From Vulcanimicrobiota bacterium (GTDB lineage: Bacteria; Vulcanimicrobiota; Vulcanimicrobiia; Vulcanimicrobiales; Vulcanimicrobiaceae): 64,000 bases of DNA. Positions within the stretch are counted from its first letter, which is position 1. Each line of letters opens with the position of its first letter. The notes under the pieces were generated by a model. The model worked only from the letters and a program-made list of their open reading frames with translations. It was not told the DNA's origin and did no database searches. The stretch spans positions 124,001 to 188,000 of the forward strand of contig PMSI01000003.1 in assembly GCA_003168375.1 (NCBI GenBank), read 5' to 3'. This document shows, piece by piece, positions 10,887-16,940 of the stretch. The translations under genes and the position numbers were made by a program.

Positions 10887-10919
10887 GGAGAAGGCCCCGC
10901 CTAGTGCGGGGCCTTCTCC
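10887..10919. terminator. Hairpin terminator shared by sigH and the convergent ferredoxin-like gene
   Basis: A perfect 14-bp stem (GGAGAAGGCCCCGC and its complement) encloses a 5-base loop. It lies between sigH and the 3' end of the minus-strand gene, whose stop codon is within the hairpin. No long T-run follows, but the stability and position suit a bidirectional terminator. Confidence 0.7.
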
Positions 10920-11278
10920 GTTGCCGGCGCGGGTTGCGGCGCGAGCTCGCGCACGATCGTCTGGTAGATGAGCTCGCGATCCTCGAGCGGGTCGAAGACG
11001 AGACACTTTTGCTGCCCGCCGCGGCCGATGGGATCGATGAAGATCGTCACCCGGCCGGGCGCGCAGACGTCGAGGCACGTCGTGCCGGCCGCGCGGATCG
11101 CGCCCCAGTGGCCTTCGGCCTTGAGACGATCCTTGAGCCACTCACGGAGCTTCAGCCGCTCGTCGCCGGCGTGCTCCGGAAAGTCTTCGGGGAAGCGGAC
11201 GTTCAGGCACTTCTCGCAGACGAGCGCGAGCCCGCCGTCACGGCGCCACAACGGTCTAACTTCGATCGGTTCGCTCAC
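10901..11278 (-). CDS. 2Fe-2S ferredoxin-like (thioredoxin-fold) protein
   Basis: This 125-residue protein has the cysteine pattern of thioredoxin-like 2Fe-2S ferredoxins. A first pair sits in LVCEKCLN and a second in TTCLDVCAPGRVTIFIDP, the C-x3-C followed by a strand that typifies the family. Such small proteins are likely soluble electron carriers. The partner is unknown. The gene is 40 bases downstream of the minus-strand tRNA-Thr and may share its transcript. Its end lies in the terminator hairpin. Confidence 0.75.
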   Translation of the reverse strand: MSEPIEVRPLWRRDGGLALVCEKCLNVRFPEDFPEHAGDERLKLREWLKDRLKAEGHWGAIRAAGTTCLDVCAPGRVTIFIDPIGRGGQQKCLVFDPLEDRELIYQTIVRELAPQPAPATEKAPH

Positions 11279-11317
11279 GTTCTACGACGATTACTCTCGC
11301 ACGCGAGAAAGATGCAG

Positions 11318-11401
11318 AGCCGACGGTGGGATTCGAACCCACGGTGTGCTTGCGCAGTAGGCTTACAAAGCCTATCCCATCGACCGCTAGGGCACGTCGG
11401 C
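11318..11401 (-). tRNA. tRNA-Thr (anticodon UGU) with a long variable arm
   Basis: On the minus strand a 7-bp acceptor stem (GCCGACG paired with CGTCGGC) is perfect. The D-stem is CCC/GGG, the anticodon stem is TAGGC/GCCTA around the loop TTTGTAA, and the T-arm is canonical with GTTCGAATC. The anticodon reads UGU, threonine. The region between anticodon stem and T-stem is about 15 bases and can form a short stem (TGC/GCA), as in class II tRNAs such as Tyr, Ser and Leu. CCA is not encoded, unlike the other tRNAs in this window. The acceptor end (G1-C72, C2-G71, U73) resembles the second threonine tRNA here. Confidence 0.8.
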
Positions 11402-11496: not shown

Positions 11497-11584
11497 GGGT
11501 CGGTGGTCGAGTGGTTAATGGCACCGGGCTGTAAACCCGGCTCGCGAAGGCGATACGCAGGTTCAAATCCTGCCCGGCCCACCA
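11497..11584 (+). tRNA. tRNA-Tyr (anticodon GUA)
   Basis: The acceptor stem GGGTCGG pairs with CCGGCCC with one G-U pair. The anticodon loop is CTGTAAA, reading GUA. A class II variable arm (CTCGCGAAGGCGATACG) precedes the T-arm GCAGGTTCAAATCCTGC. CCA is encoded. The gene belongs to a cluster resembling the Thr-Tyr-Gly-Thr set that precedes tuf in many bacteria. Confidence 0.93.
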
Positions 11585-11652: not shown

Positions 11653-11726
11653 GCGGGCGTTGCATAATGGTAATGCCCTTGCCTTCCAAGCAAGAGTCGC
11701 GGGTTCGATTCCCGCCGCCCGCTCCA
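11653..11726 (+). tRNA. tRNA-Gly (anticodon UCC)
   Basis: The acceptor GCGGGCG pairs fully with CGCCCGC. The anticodon loop is CTTCCAA, reading UCC. The T-arm is CGGGTTCGATTCCCG and CCA is encoded. A terminator follows directly, so the tRNA-Tyr/tRNA-Gly transcript ends here. Confidence 0.95.
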
Positions 11727-11863: not shown

Positions 11864-14800
11864 TCACGTACGCTCTAAGAACTCCGAAATAGGGGGATGT
11901 ACCGTTGAGTCGGCTGCCCGTGCTGCGGCGCGAAAGATGCGTAGGATCTGAGTCCTGACGTTGCCGGAGCGGTCTGCGATAGCGCTCTCAAGAGCCGGCA
12001 CGGTGTGGCGCGGTGCTACCAGGGCAACGCGCTGTTTAGAGACAACCGTCGTCCATTGATTCGCGACAGTTTCTCGAATGCTGCTAAGCGTCGGGTAGAG
12101 GGGATCGTGAAGGCCGAGAAACGCAACCCAAGCTTGTTCCGCCAACAGAATGGTGTCTGGCGTCCCGCCCCCGAGCAGGCCATGAGCCACTCCAGCGGCT
12201 AACCGCTCACGGTTTGTGATGTTGCCCGACCCGCGGAGCATTTTCAGCATCAGTTCGCGGTCGTCCATAAGATCGATTACGAGCGCAAGCCATCCGGCAA
12301 CATCAACCACACCAAACTCGTGGGCGTCACGTTGAATATCGTCGATAATGGCGCGGTCGGGCGCGCCGTCGGCGCAAAGACGAACAAGTACCGCCGCGAC
12401 GAGTTCCACGGTGGGCAAGGGACCGGCGTCGTATCTTCCGAGAGCCTCCATGTCGCGGCGATCGCGTTCGATCCCGGCAATTGTCTCGATCAGTTCACCT
12501 GTACGTCCAAGTCTGATCGCCCATGTGATGGATATGTGTCGAACGAGCGCTCCTACGGGCAGCGGATTCGCCATTAAGCGGTCGGCATGAGCATCAAGAA
12601 TCTCCGGTCTGTCGCCGACCTGCAGCTCGAACTGGGAGAGCGCCATCAATGCGATGTCCAAGCCGGGCGGGTTGTCCATGGGGGGCAGTGGATCCGGATT
12701 GCTCAAAAAGCCGACTGCGAAGAGACCTCCGTCTTGGTTCCGTTCTAGCGCGCGATCGCGTGCGGTTATCTCCATGAACACAGTGCCGACGCGCCGAGCG
12801 AGGTCGCTGACCGCCTCTTTTTCGGCGACGTGCTCCAAACCAAGCGCCTCGCTCGCGGCTGACGTTGCCAGACTTAGCGCCCGGTGACTATCGCCTGCCC
12901 GCCACGCCGCATAGGAAGCGTCGAATTTCAGGGCGCACGGCATAAGGGGAGCGGCAGGGCTGCTCTTTAGCATGTTCGCGGCGGACTCAAGGAGCGCGGC
13001 CGCATCGTCGAACCTCCTGAGGTTCCCGGCGTCGTTCGCGGCGAGTCTCATATCGAGCGCCGGTTCTGGATCGTCAGCCTCGTAGTCCAATGCGGCTTGT
13101 GCTTCGCGGAATAGATCGAACGACGACTGCCAATCAGCAGTCGCGTGGGCGATAGATGCCCGGGCCAACGTTAGCCGCGCTCGACGTCCGTATATTGCTT
13201 CGGCGTTGTCCACGACGGCAGTCGCACTTGTGGGATCGTCCGCGAACTCGGCCAACACGCGCGCGGTGCTCGTATAGCATTCGAGCGCGAAGGAGTCGAG
13301 TCCTAACGAGCTCACGAACACCGCAAACCGCTCAAGAGAGCGACCGAGGGATGCGAAGTCGGGTTCGTCGGCTGCGTGCTCATTGGCCACCAGTCCAGCT
13401 GCGACGCCGCGCCATATCATAGAGTGCACGCTGACGAAGCCAAGGAACCGTCGAGCGACATCTGGATCTTGAGGGCGAAGCTTCTCCGCAACGGACTCGA
13501 GATCGGATTGAGTTGCAACGCCAGAAAATATGTTTGTACCTGCCCAGTACGCAACGTCGCCGCATGCATCAGCAGAGTTCACCAACATGTCTTCAACGAG
13601 ACCCGATATGTCCGGCTGCTCGCGATGCAACTGCGCATCTACCTCTATCCAGCGAAACGCGTGGTCCATCATGGCCGGAACTGGTTCGGCCGGATATATT
13701 ACGACGTTTCCGTAGAACGAGTACAGCATCATCAGTCTGAACGGAGAATCGGCCATAGAGCCGGCCTCCATCTCGAACGCAGCCACAATTTTCCGCGCCT
13801 GGTCGGCAGCGTTCGCTACGCGCGCAACCCGGTATTGAGCGCATCGCAGAAGCCACAACGCAGCCGTATTTTGAAGGCCAGCGATTGGCGGAACATCAAT
13901 GCCTATCGCGGCAAACCAGCGATTCGTGCGCGATAGGGCAAGCCAGAAGTCTTCGTCGACACGCTGCACGAAGGACATGAGCAGCCCCTCGACCGTGCTC
14001 GCATCCTCGCCCCATAGCGCATGAAGTATGGCGGCCACAGCGTCACGGATGTCAACGGGATCACGCACGAGCAAGGAGCGCGCGATAGCGGAATGCGTCC
14101 GCTTGACCCATTGAGGGTCGTACGCGTATTCACCGGCGCGAGAGATAAGCGGGGAAGCCGAATACCGCTCGCTGCCGAGGGCTTCAATCCAGGGGCCGAC
14201 GAGGCGATCGAAAACGGTGCCTGCAGCCGCTATGGCGCCCTCCGGGGGAACCTCGGTCGCCGCGAGAGCGACGACATGCTCTCTGCGCGGGTTCGTCATC
14301 GTAACGAGACTCAGACGATACAGCAGCTCGCGATCTGGCGCATTGAGTGAAGCGATAAACCTGCGAGCCTCGGACATGACGTCGCCGACCTCCCGAGGCG
14401 CCTCGAAGATGTCGTCGACGGTAGGCTCGGGGAATGCGCTCGCGATCAGAGAGGCAGCTCGCGCCGCGACAAGCGTTGGATGTCCCGCGGTCGTCGCGAA
14501 TATAATGCGTCCCCACTTAGCGGCGCGATCCGCGGGCGCCGCTTGGGACTCTAAAAATGCAGCGACTTCTAGCTCGCTAAAGTTCTCCATGTTTACAACG
14601 AAGTCGTTGTTCGTCTCAGTCGCCGTCTGCACGCTTGGCGGTGGTGGCAAGAATGATGTGATGATCACCCGAGCGCCGACGCCGCGCACTTCGTCAATAA
14701 GCATCTTCAGAGCGCGGCCAAGTCGTGCCGCATCCCCAGACATATCGAGGTCGTCGACTAGGAGGCTGTAGGCCTCGGCGCTCTGTTGCGCCTGGCGAAC

Positions 14801-15871
14801 TGCTACCCGGAGAACCCGTTCGGATTCATCCGCATTGCGGTTGCGCAAGTCTACGCGCCGCCAGTCTCCGCCGACGCTGCGAGCGTAATCCAACGCTGAT
14901 CCGGTCTTCCCGGTGCCCGAAGAGCCAACGAGGAAGGCCAGGCCATGCGCGTCTACCCTTGCGGCAATCGGCTCGAACAACGTCGGACGCCGCCAGTATC
15001 GCGGAGGCATGGGCGGCATCTCGTCGAGGACAGGTTGTTCTTGTGGGACGTGTGGAGTGCGCATCCCTGACGCGAAAAGCGCGCTGTTAATAGGGATCGG
15101 GACTGACGTTGCTTGCTCGAACGTTATGCGCAGTTCCAGTAGGTCCAGGAACCGGTCAGTGCGTGCCACTGCCGCTTCCAAGACGCGATCAAAGAGCCGC
15201 GATAGGGCTTGCAGTGATTGTGCGGTGTTAAAACCCTTCCCCAAGCCGTACCGCGCAAGAGCGCGTTCAGCACGGTGACGTAAATCGGCCGGCTGCGCGG
15301 CCGAGACGTCGAAGGCGAATGGAATAAAAAGCCGTTCGCGAATTTCCTGTGGACCTGCAGCTGCGAGAAATGTTCGCAGAACTACTGGTAGTGCTTCTTC
15401 GTTTGAGAGCGCGCTGGCGATGGCACTAACGATTGGCACCCATAGGGCGGGATCGTCAATGCTGCGGGCTTCTTCCCAAAGCACCAATCCCGGGCGGTTC
15501 AACCCATACGGATTGCCTTTCTCGAGCCCGATGTCCGCAGTAGTGAGGTACGAAAAGCGTATCGCGCGATCAGGGTTTCGCGCGACGTGACCCCAGAAGT
15601 GCCCGATTGACTCGAGCACCTTACGTGATTTCAGGGTGACGTTGCCCGCTTCGCGCTTAACCTGGATGACGTCCGCGCCTGATCGTCGCAGTTTCTCGAT
15701 GTCCTCAGCGCCTTCAAGAAACAGTACGTCTGAGTCGTCCGTGAGTTCGAGCCACGCGACCAGGGACTGCCACCCTTGGTAGAGGTATCCACCAAAAGAG
15801 TCGACCGCTTCCCGGGCTGTCTCTCCCGTAAGGCGGCTTGGAATCCGGTCATGGTCCCGTTCGTGTGACAT
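11864..15871 (-). CDS. Cap4-like nuclease fused to a STAND NTPase with helical repeats (putative Avs-type antiviral protein)
   Basis: This 1335-residue protein has three parts. Residues about 20-125 match the DUF4297/Cap4 endonuclease pattern: GGYLYQGWQSLVAWL, an acidic pair in LEGAEDIEK (E56, D57), the QVK motif at 70-72, then FSYLTTADIG. A STAND-type P-loop ATPase follows, with Walker A GSSGTGKT (316-323) and Walker B SLLVDDLD (369-376). The remaining roughly 800 residues are alpha-helical, TPR-like repeats suited to sensing. Known antiviral STAND (Avs) proteins join such nucleases to an NTPase and a phage-protein sensor. The G+C content is visibly lower than that of the neighbours and the gene lies between tRNA genes, both signs of transfer. 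Domain assignments are by pattern, and the antiviral role is inferred. Confidence 0.8.
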   Translation of the reverse strand: MSHERDHDRIPSRLTGETAREAVDSFGGYLYQGWQSLVAWLELTDDSDVLFLEGAEDIEKLRRSGADVIQVKREAGNVTLKSRKVLESIGHFWGHVARNPDRAIRFSYLTTADIGLEKGNPYGLNRPGLVLWEEARSIDDPALWVPIVSAIASALSNEEALPVVLRTFLAAAGPQEIRERLFIPFAFDVSAAQPADLRHRAERALARYGLGKGFNTAQSLQALSRLFDRVLEAAVARTDRFLDLLELRITFEQATSVPIPINSALFASGMRTPHVPQEQPVLDEMPPMPPRYWRRPTLFEPIAARVDAHGLAFLVGSSGTGKTGSALDYARSVGGDWRRVDLRNRNADESERVLRVAVRQAQQSAEAYSLLVDDLDMSGDAARLGRALKMLIDEVRGVGARVIITSFLPPPPSVQTATETNNDFVVNMENFSELEVAAFLESQAAPADRAAKWGRIIFATTAGHPTLVAARAASLIASAFPEPTVDDIFEAPREVGDVMSEARRFIASLNAPDRELLYRLSLVTMTNPRREHVVALAATEVPPEGAIAAAGTVFDRLVGPWIEALGSERYSASPLISRAGEYAYDPQWVKRTHSAIARSLLVRDPVDIRDAVAAILHALWGEDASTVEGLLMSFVQRVDEDFWLALSRTNRWFAAIGIDVPPIAGLQNTAALWLLRCAQYRVARVANAADQARKIVAAFEMEAGSMADSPFRLMMLYSFYGNVVIYPAEPVPAMMDHAFRWIEVDAQLHREQPDISGLVEDMLVNSADACGDVAYWAGTNIFSGVATQSDLESVAEKLRPQDPDVARRFLGFVSVHSMIWRGVAAGLVANEHAADEPDFASLGRSLERFAVFVSSLGLDSFALECYTSTARVLAEFADDPTSATAVVDNAEAIYGRRARLTLARASIAHATADWQSSFDLFREAQAALDYEADDPEPALDMRLAANDAGNLRRFDDAAALLESAANMLKSSPAAPLMPCALKFDASYAAWRAGDSHRALSLATSAASEALGLEHVAEKEAVSDLARRVGTVFMEITARDRALERNQDGGLFAVGFLSNPDPLPPMDNPPGLDIALMALSQFELQVGDRPEILDAHADRLMANPLPVGALVRHISITWAIRLGRTGELIETIAGIERDRRDMEALGRYDAGPLPTVELVAAVLVRLCADGAPDRAIIDDIQRDAHEFGVVDVAGWLALVIDLMDDRELMLKMLRGSGNITNRERLAAGVAHGLLGGGTPDTILLAEQAWVAFLGLHDPLYPTLSSIRETVANQWTTVVSKQRVALVAPRHTVPALESAIADRSGNVRTQILRIFRAAARAADSTVHPPISEFLERT

Positions 15872-16341: not shown

Positions 16342-16875
16342 ATGAGTTATCAAGCGATCCCGGGCGTGTCGTTCTTGATCGATGACGAGTGCGGCGACTG
16401 CCAGTTAGAATTCGAACTCACGCCAGAGTTCGAAGCTAGATATGAACTGACGCCGCTGACCGGCAACGGGGCGAAGCGCAACACGAAGAAAATAGGCGAC
16501 ATCTCAGAGCTCCATGCGATCGTCGCCTTGACGAAGCTAGGCTACAAAGTGCTGATTCCGTTTGGGGAAAATCAACGCTACGATTTCGTCATTGATGACG
16601 GGGAGACGTTTTCGCGCGTGCAGGTCAAGACGGGCCAGCTGCGCGGCGATGTCATCCTTTACAGCTGTTCGAGTTCGCATGCCCATCGCGGCGGGACTTC
16701 GCGCCCCTATTTCGGGCAGATCGAGTATCTGGCGGTCTATTGCCCGGGGACTGAGAAGGTCTACCTGTTGCCCGAGAAGGAGTTGACGGCTACGAGAGCT
16801 CATCTTCGCCTGTCGCCGCCGCGGAATAATATGGTCAAGTCCATCCGCTGGGCGCGCGATTTCGAGCTGGCGTAG
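16342..16875 (+). CDS. Small PD-(D/E)XK-family nuclease
   Basis: The 177-residue protein has the core of a PD-(D/E)XK nuclease. A conserved glutamate (E56) sits in KKIGDISELHAIVALTKLGYKV. An aspartate (D81) lies in NQRYDFVIDDG, and QVK (94-96) lies in FSRVQVKTGQL. This fits the family typed as PD-(D/E)XK endonuclease, related to resolvase- or homing-type enzymes. The substrate is unknown. The reading frame ends inside the first 10 bases of tRNA-Thr, so this block abuts or was inserted at the tRNA. No clear ribosome binding site precedes the ATG. With the large divergent nuclease/NTPase gene it forms an accessory block. Confidence 0.75.
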   Translation: MSYQAIPGVSFLIDDECGDCQLEFELTPEFEARYELTPLTGNGAKRNTKKIGDISELHAIVALTKLGYKVLIPFGENQRYDFVIDDGETFSRVQVKTGQLRGDVILYSCSSSHAHRGGTSRPYFGQIEYLAVYCPGTEKVYLLPEKELTATRAHLRLSPPRNNMVKSIRWARDFELA

Positions 16876-16940
16876 CTTAGCGGTAAAGCACCTCGTTGGT
16901 AACGAGGAGACCGTGGGTTCAATCCCCACCGCCAGCTCCA
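16866..16940 (+). tRNA. tRNA-Thr (anticodon GGU)
   Basis: The acceptor GCTGGCG pairs with CGCCAGC. The anticodon loop is TTGGTAA, reading GGU, the T-arm is GTGGGTTCAATCCCCAC and CCA is encoded. The 5' end overlaps the end of the nuclease gene by 10 bases. It completes a Thr-Tyr-Gly-Thr tRNA set that is split by the nuclease block. Confidence 0.94.

Follow-up and report, generated by a model that had tools for sequence, protein, structure and literature searches.

How does a tRNA with the anticodon and acceptor stem of threonine come to carry the long variable (V) arm of a class II tRNA? The question is raised by one gene in the stretch of 64,000 nucleotides analyzed here (the window), where the original prediction, made from the letters alone, had placed a class II-like tRNA-Thr(UGU) without an encoded CCA at 11318–11401. 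ARAGORN calls a tRNA-Thr(tgt) at 11317–11401 on the minus strand, and the Rfam tRNA model RF00005 matches 11318–11401 on the same strand with 57.2 bits compared to a gathering score of 29, which confirms the gene at its exact coordinates. Its parts follow along the minus strand: the 5′ strand of the acceptor stem, GCCGACG (11395–11401); positions 8 to 26 (TGCCCTAGCGGTCGATGGGA; 11375–11394), with a D arm of three base pairs (CCC/GGG) and an unpaired T.T at 13–22; the anticodon arm TAGGC-TTTGTAA-GCCTA (11358–11374), in which ARAGORN assigns the anticodon UGU (11365–11367); a V segment of 15 nt (CTGCGCAAGCACACC; 11343–11357), in which TGC at 11354–11356 can pair with GCA at 11347–11349 around a GCAA loop (11350–11353), followed by CACC; the T arm GTGGG-TTCGAAT-CCCAC (11326–11342); the 3′ strand of the acceptor stem, CGTCGGC (11319–11325); and the discriminator U73 (11318), after which CCA is absent. 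All seven acceptor pairs and all five T-arm pairs form, giving a 7/5 composition, with a 5-bp anticodon stem and the anticodon in a 7-nt loop. Thus, the perfect stems, the TTTGTAA loop, the fifteen-base V segment with its TGC/GCA stem, and the CCC/GGG D stem that had been described could each be read directly. By structure the gene is class II, having a V segment of at least 10 nt with a stem and a 13–22 pair that is not Watson–Crick; by family it is not, its anticodon and acceptor being other than those of Ser, Leu, or Tyr. In single-sequence folding the minimum-energy fold of the window tRNA differs from the cloverleaf, which the genes of three relatives (G001, G007, and G054) do give; the cloverleaf we propose for the window tRNA rests on covariation and on tRNA models.

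The genome that contains the window (G000; Eremiobacterota, 4.43 Mb in 7 contigs, 97% complete) has, as far as we found, no other gene for this isoacceptor. A second tRNA-Thr(UGU), which the original prediction had suggested looking for, was not among the 72 ARAGORN genes (8 in the window and 64 in stretches around RF00005 matches), of which one has the anticodon UGU. Outside the tRNA array, the threonine anticodons GGU and CGU belong to class I tRNAs whose V loops measure 5 nt, including the tRNA-Thr(GGU) at 16866–16940 (plus strand; ARAGORN) that served as comparison gene. The seven other tRNAs of the window encode CCA and this one does not, as had been noted. We rejected this as a special sign: CCA is likewise missing from 15 of the 44 tRNA genes outside the 28-tRNA array, so the weight first placed on it falls away. 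The array itself (contig C7, 182.5–186.3 kb; L045) holds 28 tRNA genes, among them Thr(CGU) and Thr(GGU) and no Thr(UGU), and, going by the excerpted account in PMC12803027, the tRNA array units of Mycobacterium avium plasmids are much like it.

To place the gene among its relatives, we searched the 117 genomes of the class with a pattern consisting of the UGU loop and the T arm. The pattern matched 102 genomes, and 101 genes from 100 genomes were parsed; the 17 genomes without a parsed gene comprise 15 with no pattern match, one with only a 3′ fragment (G037), and one with Ns (G095). Both short and long V forms were present: 58 genes have a V segment of 4 to 5 nt, 7 of 6 to 11 nt, and 36 of 13 to 19 nt (4 nt, 1 gene; 5 nt, 57; 6 nt, 3; 7 nt, 2; 11 nt, 2; 13 nt, 11; 14 nt, 9; 15 nt, 10; 16 nt, 3; 18 nt, 2; 19 nt, 1). 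The window's own family (f1) contains both classes, also within single genera (g1, g29, g41, g46, and g47), whereas family f3, with ten parsed genes, shows only the 5-nt V segment. Outside the class, 32 genomes of the phylum gave two stray pattern matches (G138 and G140). One genome, G066, has two tRNA-Thr(UGU) genes on separate contigs (C52 and C54; L089 and L090), one with a 5-nt V segment and an odd D arm and one of class II with 15 nt. We additionally observed 3′ halves of tRNA-Thr(UGU) with no 5′ half in G042 (L064) and G037 (L066), which look like attachment-site remnants of integrated elements.

If the long V segment is a structured arm, its two strands should vary together. A V stem of 3 bp occurs in 18 genes, 16 of them distinct; in these, 100% of V-pair cells are paired, and all three pairs vary on both sides (TGC/GCA, GAC/GTC, CGC/GCG, CCC/GGG, and CTG/CAG). 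Taken jointly, the V and anticodon helices have 99.2% of their cells paired, compared to 16 to 50% in slid controls. A GNRA-type motif is present in all 36 genes with a V segment of at least 13 nt (in five, the automatic stem finder chose another register), and the stem lengthens with the V arm (for example, CCCA-GAAA-TGGG and GTGTCA-GAAA-TGGCAC). We conclude from this covariation that the long V arm is a real helix. The same data bear on whether the gene is a pseudogene or an artefact of assembly. Many of the relatives are MAGs, and two g46 genomes are listed with 5 to 7% contamination; against this stand the perfect stems and their covariation, the presence of the long-armed gene in single-contig and few-contig genomes (G006 and G105), an identical gene in G000 and G004, and the same class swap in isolated phages (described below). 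We therefore give the pseudogene or artefact reading almost no weight, and the sequencing error that had been entertained at first fails on the occurrence of the long-armed gene in other genomes, including the single-contig G006.

Genes of this shape might be expected wherever tRNA structure has loosened in general. We rejected this, since among the four isoacceptor types searched we recognized long arms only in Thr(UGU). The single-contig relative G006 (99% complete) has 45 ARAGORN tRNAs with one Thr(UGU), whose V segment is 15 nt, and its 34 other tRNAs outside Ser, Leu, and Tyr have 4 to 5 nt; in G105, Thr(UGU) has 18 nt and 36 others have 4 to 6 nt. Across the class, tRNA-like strings for Thr(CGU), Lys(UUU), and Thr(GGU) have a 5-nt V segment as judged by eye, for Thr(GGU) among the matches listed. 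By the same inspection, which left stray longer strings unfolded, we recognized no long-armed Lys(UUU) or Thr(CGU) in the class and no long-armed Thr(GGU) among the matches listed.

The D arm changes with the V arm. Of the 38 genes whose V segment is at least 10 nt long, 37 lack the 13–22 pair, compared to 19 of the 63 with a shorter one (Fisher p 2.5e-12, a value that ignores relatedness). The 19 short-armed genes without the pair include a group with D arms like TGGCTCAGCGGCTACAGCA (13–22 C.C) and V segments of 5, 6, and 7 nt; D arms resembling these are joined to V segments of 11 nt (G017) and 15 nt (G066) as well. Judged by sequence, these genes look like intermediates in which the 13–22 pair was lost first.

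By its sequence the gene still belongs with the threonine tRNAs. U73 is present in all 101 parsed genes, and the acceptor strand GCCGACG is shared by 31 of the 38 long-armed genes and by 47 of the remaining 63. In 31 of the 38 genes with a V segment of at least 10 nt, acceptor and T arm are identical to those of some short-armed gene. The acceptor stem GCCGACG/CGTCGGC and U73 of the window gene are those of tRNA-Thr(CGU) of the same genome, in agreement with the threonine identity first read from its acceptor bases. According to the excerpted text of PMC9976931, threonine identity depends on acceptor pairs and the anticodon, and position 73 mostly plays a minor part. Codon usage speaks to the same point. 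At ACA columns of rpoB and ThrRS, the only two genes compared, the modal residue of other genomes is threonine in 29 of 41 cases for genomes with a V segment of at least 10 nt and 47 of 72 for short-armed genomes; the threonine fractions are 0.66 and 0.61, respectively, compared to 0.76 to 0.80 for ACC/ACG. Thus, ACA appears to be read as threonine.

A recoding or mistranslating tRNA would nevertheless have a long V arm for good reason: the arm would make it a substrate of SerRS (or LeuRS), and ACA would be translated as serine or leucine. Nematode nev-tRNAs offer the precedent, being extra genes with a class II body and an anticodon of a class I family that are charged with leucine. The long V arm and the Ser-like D arms in several genera agree with such a reading, as does tRNA-Ser(UGA) of the window genome (L044; contig C7, 59 kb), which likewise has U73 and not the usual G73. 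We consider it very improbable because threonine predominates at ACA columns, where the serine fraction is 0.079 in genomes with a V segment of at least 10 nt compared to 0.037 in short-armed genomes (few codons in either case) and the leucine fraction in the former is 0.012; the acceptor stem is that of tRNA-Thr(CGU); and the gene is the only UGU isoacceptor found. In addition, ThrRS, for which the window genome has one match over the family cut-off, keeps its editing domain (tRNA_SAD), and SerRS reportedly reads the long arm together with G73, according to the excerpted text of PMC7609411. The early suggestion of a suppressor-like tRNA is thus not supported for a gene that is the only UGU isoacceptor found and whose codon stands at threonine positions. 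Of the two original alternatives, evolutionary remodelling is the one that the comparison bears out, and a class II tRNA-Thr is indeed unusual. As a side observation, the usual layout of ThrRS has an N-terminal TGS domain ahead of the editing domain, and the ThrRS frame of the window genome (L266; contig C1, 3957–5618; 591 aa) has no room for one there; that of a class I genome, G029, looks alike.

We next consider where the remodelling took place. The divergent neighbor tRNA-Tyr(GUA) (11497–11584, plus strand; ARAGORN) and tRNA-Gly(UCC) (11653–11726, plus strand; ARAGORN) are kept in relatives, and an ORF of 125 aa downstream of tRNA-Thr(UGU) (10901–11278, minus strand) was used to locate the homologous locus; database relatives of this flanking ORF are Eremiobacterota/WPS-2 MAGs. 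We compared five genome pairs within genus g46: over 300 nt downstream of the gene, identity is 85 to 91%, also in the two pairs of opposite tRNA class (G100/G104, 91%; G102/G103, 88%), and upstream flanks are less similar (62–71%). With flanks alike and tRNA classes different, the locus appears to stay in place while the tRNA body is exchanged. Farther along, between tRNA-Gly(UCC) and tRNA-Thr(GGU), lie a large protein (11864–15871, minus strand) with an LmuA/DUF4297-like start and an AAA region and a PD-(D/E)XK protein (16342–16875, plus strand). The corresponding gap in relatives is about 0.6 to 0.9 kb (G008 and G004) or 11 nt (G020) and therefore looks like an insertion hot spot. The defence-type island originally placed beside the tRNA is plausible from weak LmuA/DUF4297 and Cap4-nuclease-like matches of this neighbor gene, although nothing links the neighbor to the tRNA.

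To estimate the number of exchanges, we used a tree built with FastTree from rpoB and ThrRS (1134 + 565 columns) of 101 genomes, mostly MAGs. Eight genomes with the gene and no marker were left out of the tree, and nine with a marker and no parsed gene were pruned, so changes were counted on 92 leaves, with class II defined as a V segment of at least 10 nt (this includes two stemless 11-nt genes). Parsimony requires 22 changes, with a lower bound of 19 when nodes with support below 0.9 are opened, and shuffled labels give a mean of 28.3 (range 19–34). Because 22 is only modestly below the shuffled mean, the class of the tRNA is barely inherited along this tree. Twelve sister pairs are of opposite class, some at a distance of about 0.01 (G100/G104, support 0.95; G102/G103, support 0.63); support is weak at key nodes such as the latter and G001/G007 (0.10).

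What could supply the new lower halves? The candidates are in-place change via intermediates, recombination among relatives, and phage genes. Gene conversion by a class II tRNA of the genome itself was unsupported: the two tRNA sets tested yielded no donor for the D arm, the best D-arm scores being 9/20 (G006) and 13/22 (G105). The D arm of G054 equals that of tRNA-Gln(UUG) in G006 and G105, through either origin or convergence. A scan of viral contigs for long-armed UGU tRNAs gave at least 120 stretches; among the 120 matches listed, 44 parse as tRNA-Thr(UGU) with V segments of 11 to 22 nt (L347 and L362 with doubt), of which 42 start G1–C72, C2–G71, and in these stretches ARAGORN finds 42 genes for a long-armed Thr(tgt). 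The class II alleles could accordingly have come from phages as entire tRNA genes, displacing the chromosomal copy. The D arms of G062 and G043 (20/20) and of G017 and G066 (19/19) are identical to those of viral class II Thr(UGU), and this group is the best or tied-best D-arm match for 28 of 38 genes with a V segment of at least 10 nt, in a comparison that the viral pool of 637 tRNAs, ten times the own-genome pool of 64, biases toward viral best matches. However, the acceptor and T arm of 31 of the 38 chromosomal genes are found in class I relatives, whereas the viral genes among the matches listed have other acceptors; the shared upper halves argue against simple whole-gene import in most cases. 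Moreover, 41 of the viral stretches have a G+C content of 30 to 52% and so do not obviously come from these hosts. We regard replacement by whole phage genes as possible and, on balance, unlikely.

T5-like phages of E. coli and Salmonella show, by sequence, the same swap at a single locus. Immediately downstream of two small ORFs, T5.060–T5.059, T5 has a 75-nt class I tRNA-Thr(UGU), and Lindwurm and SE11 have an 87-nt class II tRNA-Thr(UGU), between flanks that are 71 to 87% (upstream) and 95 to 96% (downstream) identical. In 17 further T5-like phages, picked from 60 rows across 410 flank records, ARAGORN gave 4 class II genes, 12 class I genes, and 1 without. An ORF of 55 aa (phrog_15108) follows the tRNA in 6 of 6 class II phages (L505, L506, L512, L514, L520, and L521) whereas none of the 13 class I T5-like phages has it annotated next to tRNA-Thr(UGU); the database holds 88 records with the class II phage tRNA and 88 with the ORF, each at 95% identity or more. 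The two may form a two-gene cassette.

Phage and host alleles of both classes raise the possibility of an arms race, in which tRNA-Thr(UGU) is targeted by tRNA-cutting immune effectors and changes in the D and V arms are an escape by phages and hosts. According to the excerpted text of PMC12409363, tRNA-Thr(UGU) of E. coli is a prime target for cutting by AriB of PARIS. The restriction of recognized long arms to Thr(UGU), as against Thr(GGU), Thr(CGU), and Lys(UUU), agrees with such targeting, as does the 55-aa ORF that travels with the class II allele. Among the 117 genomes of the class, DUF4435 (PF14491), which we take to be the AriB family, was absent from all 117, and a link to PARIS was rejected; AAA_13 (PF13166), which presumably covers PrrC and RloC, matched in 7, 2 of them over the cut-off. 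The cut itself falls in the anticodon stem, with a UAAU target site; 20 of 38 long-armed genes have U39 of that site, compared to 13 of 63 short-armed genes, opposite to what escape predicts. Lys(UUU), the other AriB target, has no long-armed form that we recognized in the class. We consider an escape from tRNA-cutting effectors doubtful, and give no better chance to its broader form, in which molecular conflict in bacteria and phages would center on tRNA-Thr(UGU), its two bodies, class I and class II, would be interchangeable alleles, and tRNA-attacking effectors would keep both in circulation by selecting against the commoner one. If this were true, the whole tRNA core would be a replaceable immune-escape part and not a fixed feature of an amino acid family.

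In our preferred explanation, which we hold to be probable, the window gene is a working, ACA-reading threonine tRNA, the sole UGU gene found, whose lower half (D, anticodon, and V arms) has been repeatedly exchanged. By sequence, the upper half (acceptor stem, U73, and mostly the T arm) and the anticodon are those of the class I tRNA-Thr of relatives, and the D arm, anticodon stem, and V arm are built as a class II core with a V hairpin. ThrRS would charge both forms because it reads the acceptor stem and the anticodon and not the V arm, so that D/V cores could be exchanged provided that they fit each other. Alleles of both classes may form one mixed pool and recombine with each other, which would bring about the exchange. 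Few threonine codons are ACA (41 of 2109 in rpoB and ThrRS of long-armed genomes and 72 of 2781 in short-armed genomes), and fitness losses would therefore be small; this rarity would relax selection, yet it leaves the retention of a well-formed helix unexplained.

On this account, the only ACA-reading tRNA found in the genome crosses the line between class I and class II, and has done so many times in its family, with intermediates whose V segments are 6, 7, and 11 nt and whose 13–22 pair is already lost. The many switches and the intermediates make what separates the two classes directly testable, and T5-like phages of E. coli, with both alleles at one locus, would allow charging, decoding, and nuclease sensitivity to be compared in ordinary laboratory strains. 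In the excerpted text of reviews, long variable arms are confined to the tRNAs for Ser, Leu, Tyr, and Sec, together with selC* tRNA-Cys and allo-tRNAs. We found no description of a class II tRNA-Thr in the titles and abstracts of the open-licence literature; since the phage gene already bears the label tRNA-Thr in records of T5-like phages, an account in older or subscription literature is possible.

Set against known systems, the window gene is like the class II tRNAs (Ser, Leu, and bacterial Tyr) in its V arm of more than 10 nt with a hairpin, its 3-bp D stem, and its 13–22 pair that is not Watson–Crick, and unlike them in its threonine anticodon, threonine-type acceptor, U73, and role as the sole ACA isoacceptor found. 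With ordinary class I bacterial tRNA-Thr(UGU) it shares the anticodon loop, acceptor stem, T arm, and locus, but its D and V arms are of class II type. Like nematode nev-tRNAs it joins a class II body to the anticodon of a class I family; unlike them it is no extra copy but the sole UGU gene, and its codon appears to mean threonine. The selC* tRNA-Cys and allo-tRNAs, as described in the excerpted text of PMC7609411, also have a long V arm outside Ser, Leu, and Tyr, but with lengthened acceptor and anticodon stems, whereas the window gene is 7/5 with a 5-bp anticodon stem. The same architecture is found in the phage class II genes, tRNA-Thr(UGU) of T5-like phages and long-armed tRNA-Lys(CUU/UUU) of named phages of Ruegeria, Rhodobacter, and Mesorhizobium (L428–L431); across 71 nt, the window tRNA and the Lys(CUU) gene from Roseobacter phage DSS3P8 have 80.6% identity. 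The phage genes differ in having other acceptor stems, in being phage-borne, and in being annotated merely as tRNA-Thr or tRNA-Lys or not at all.
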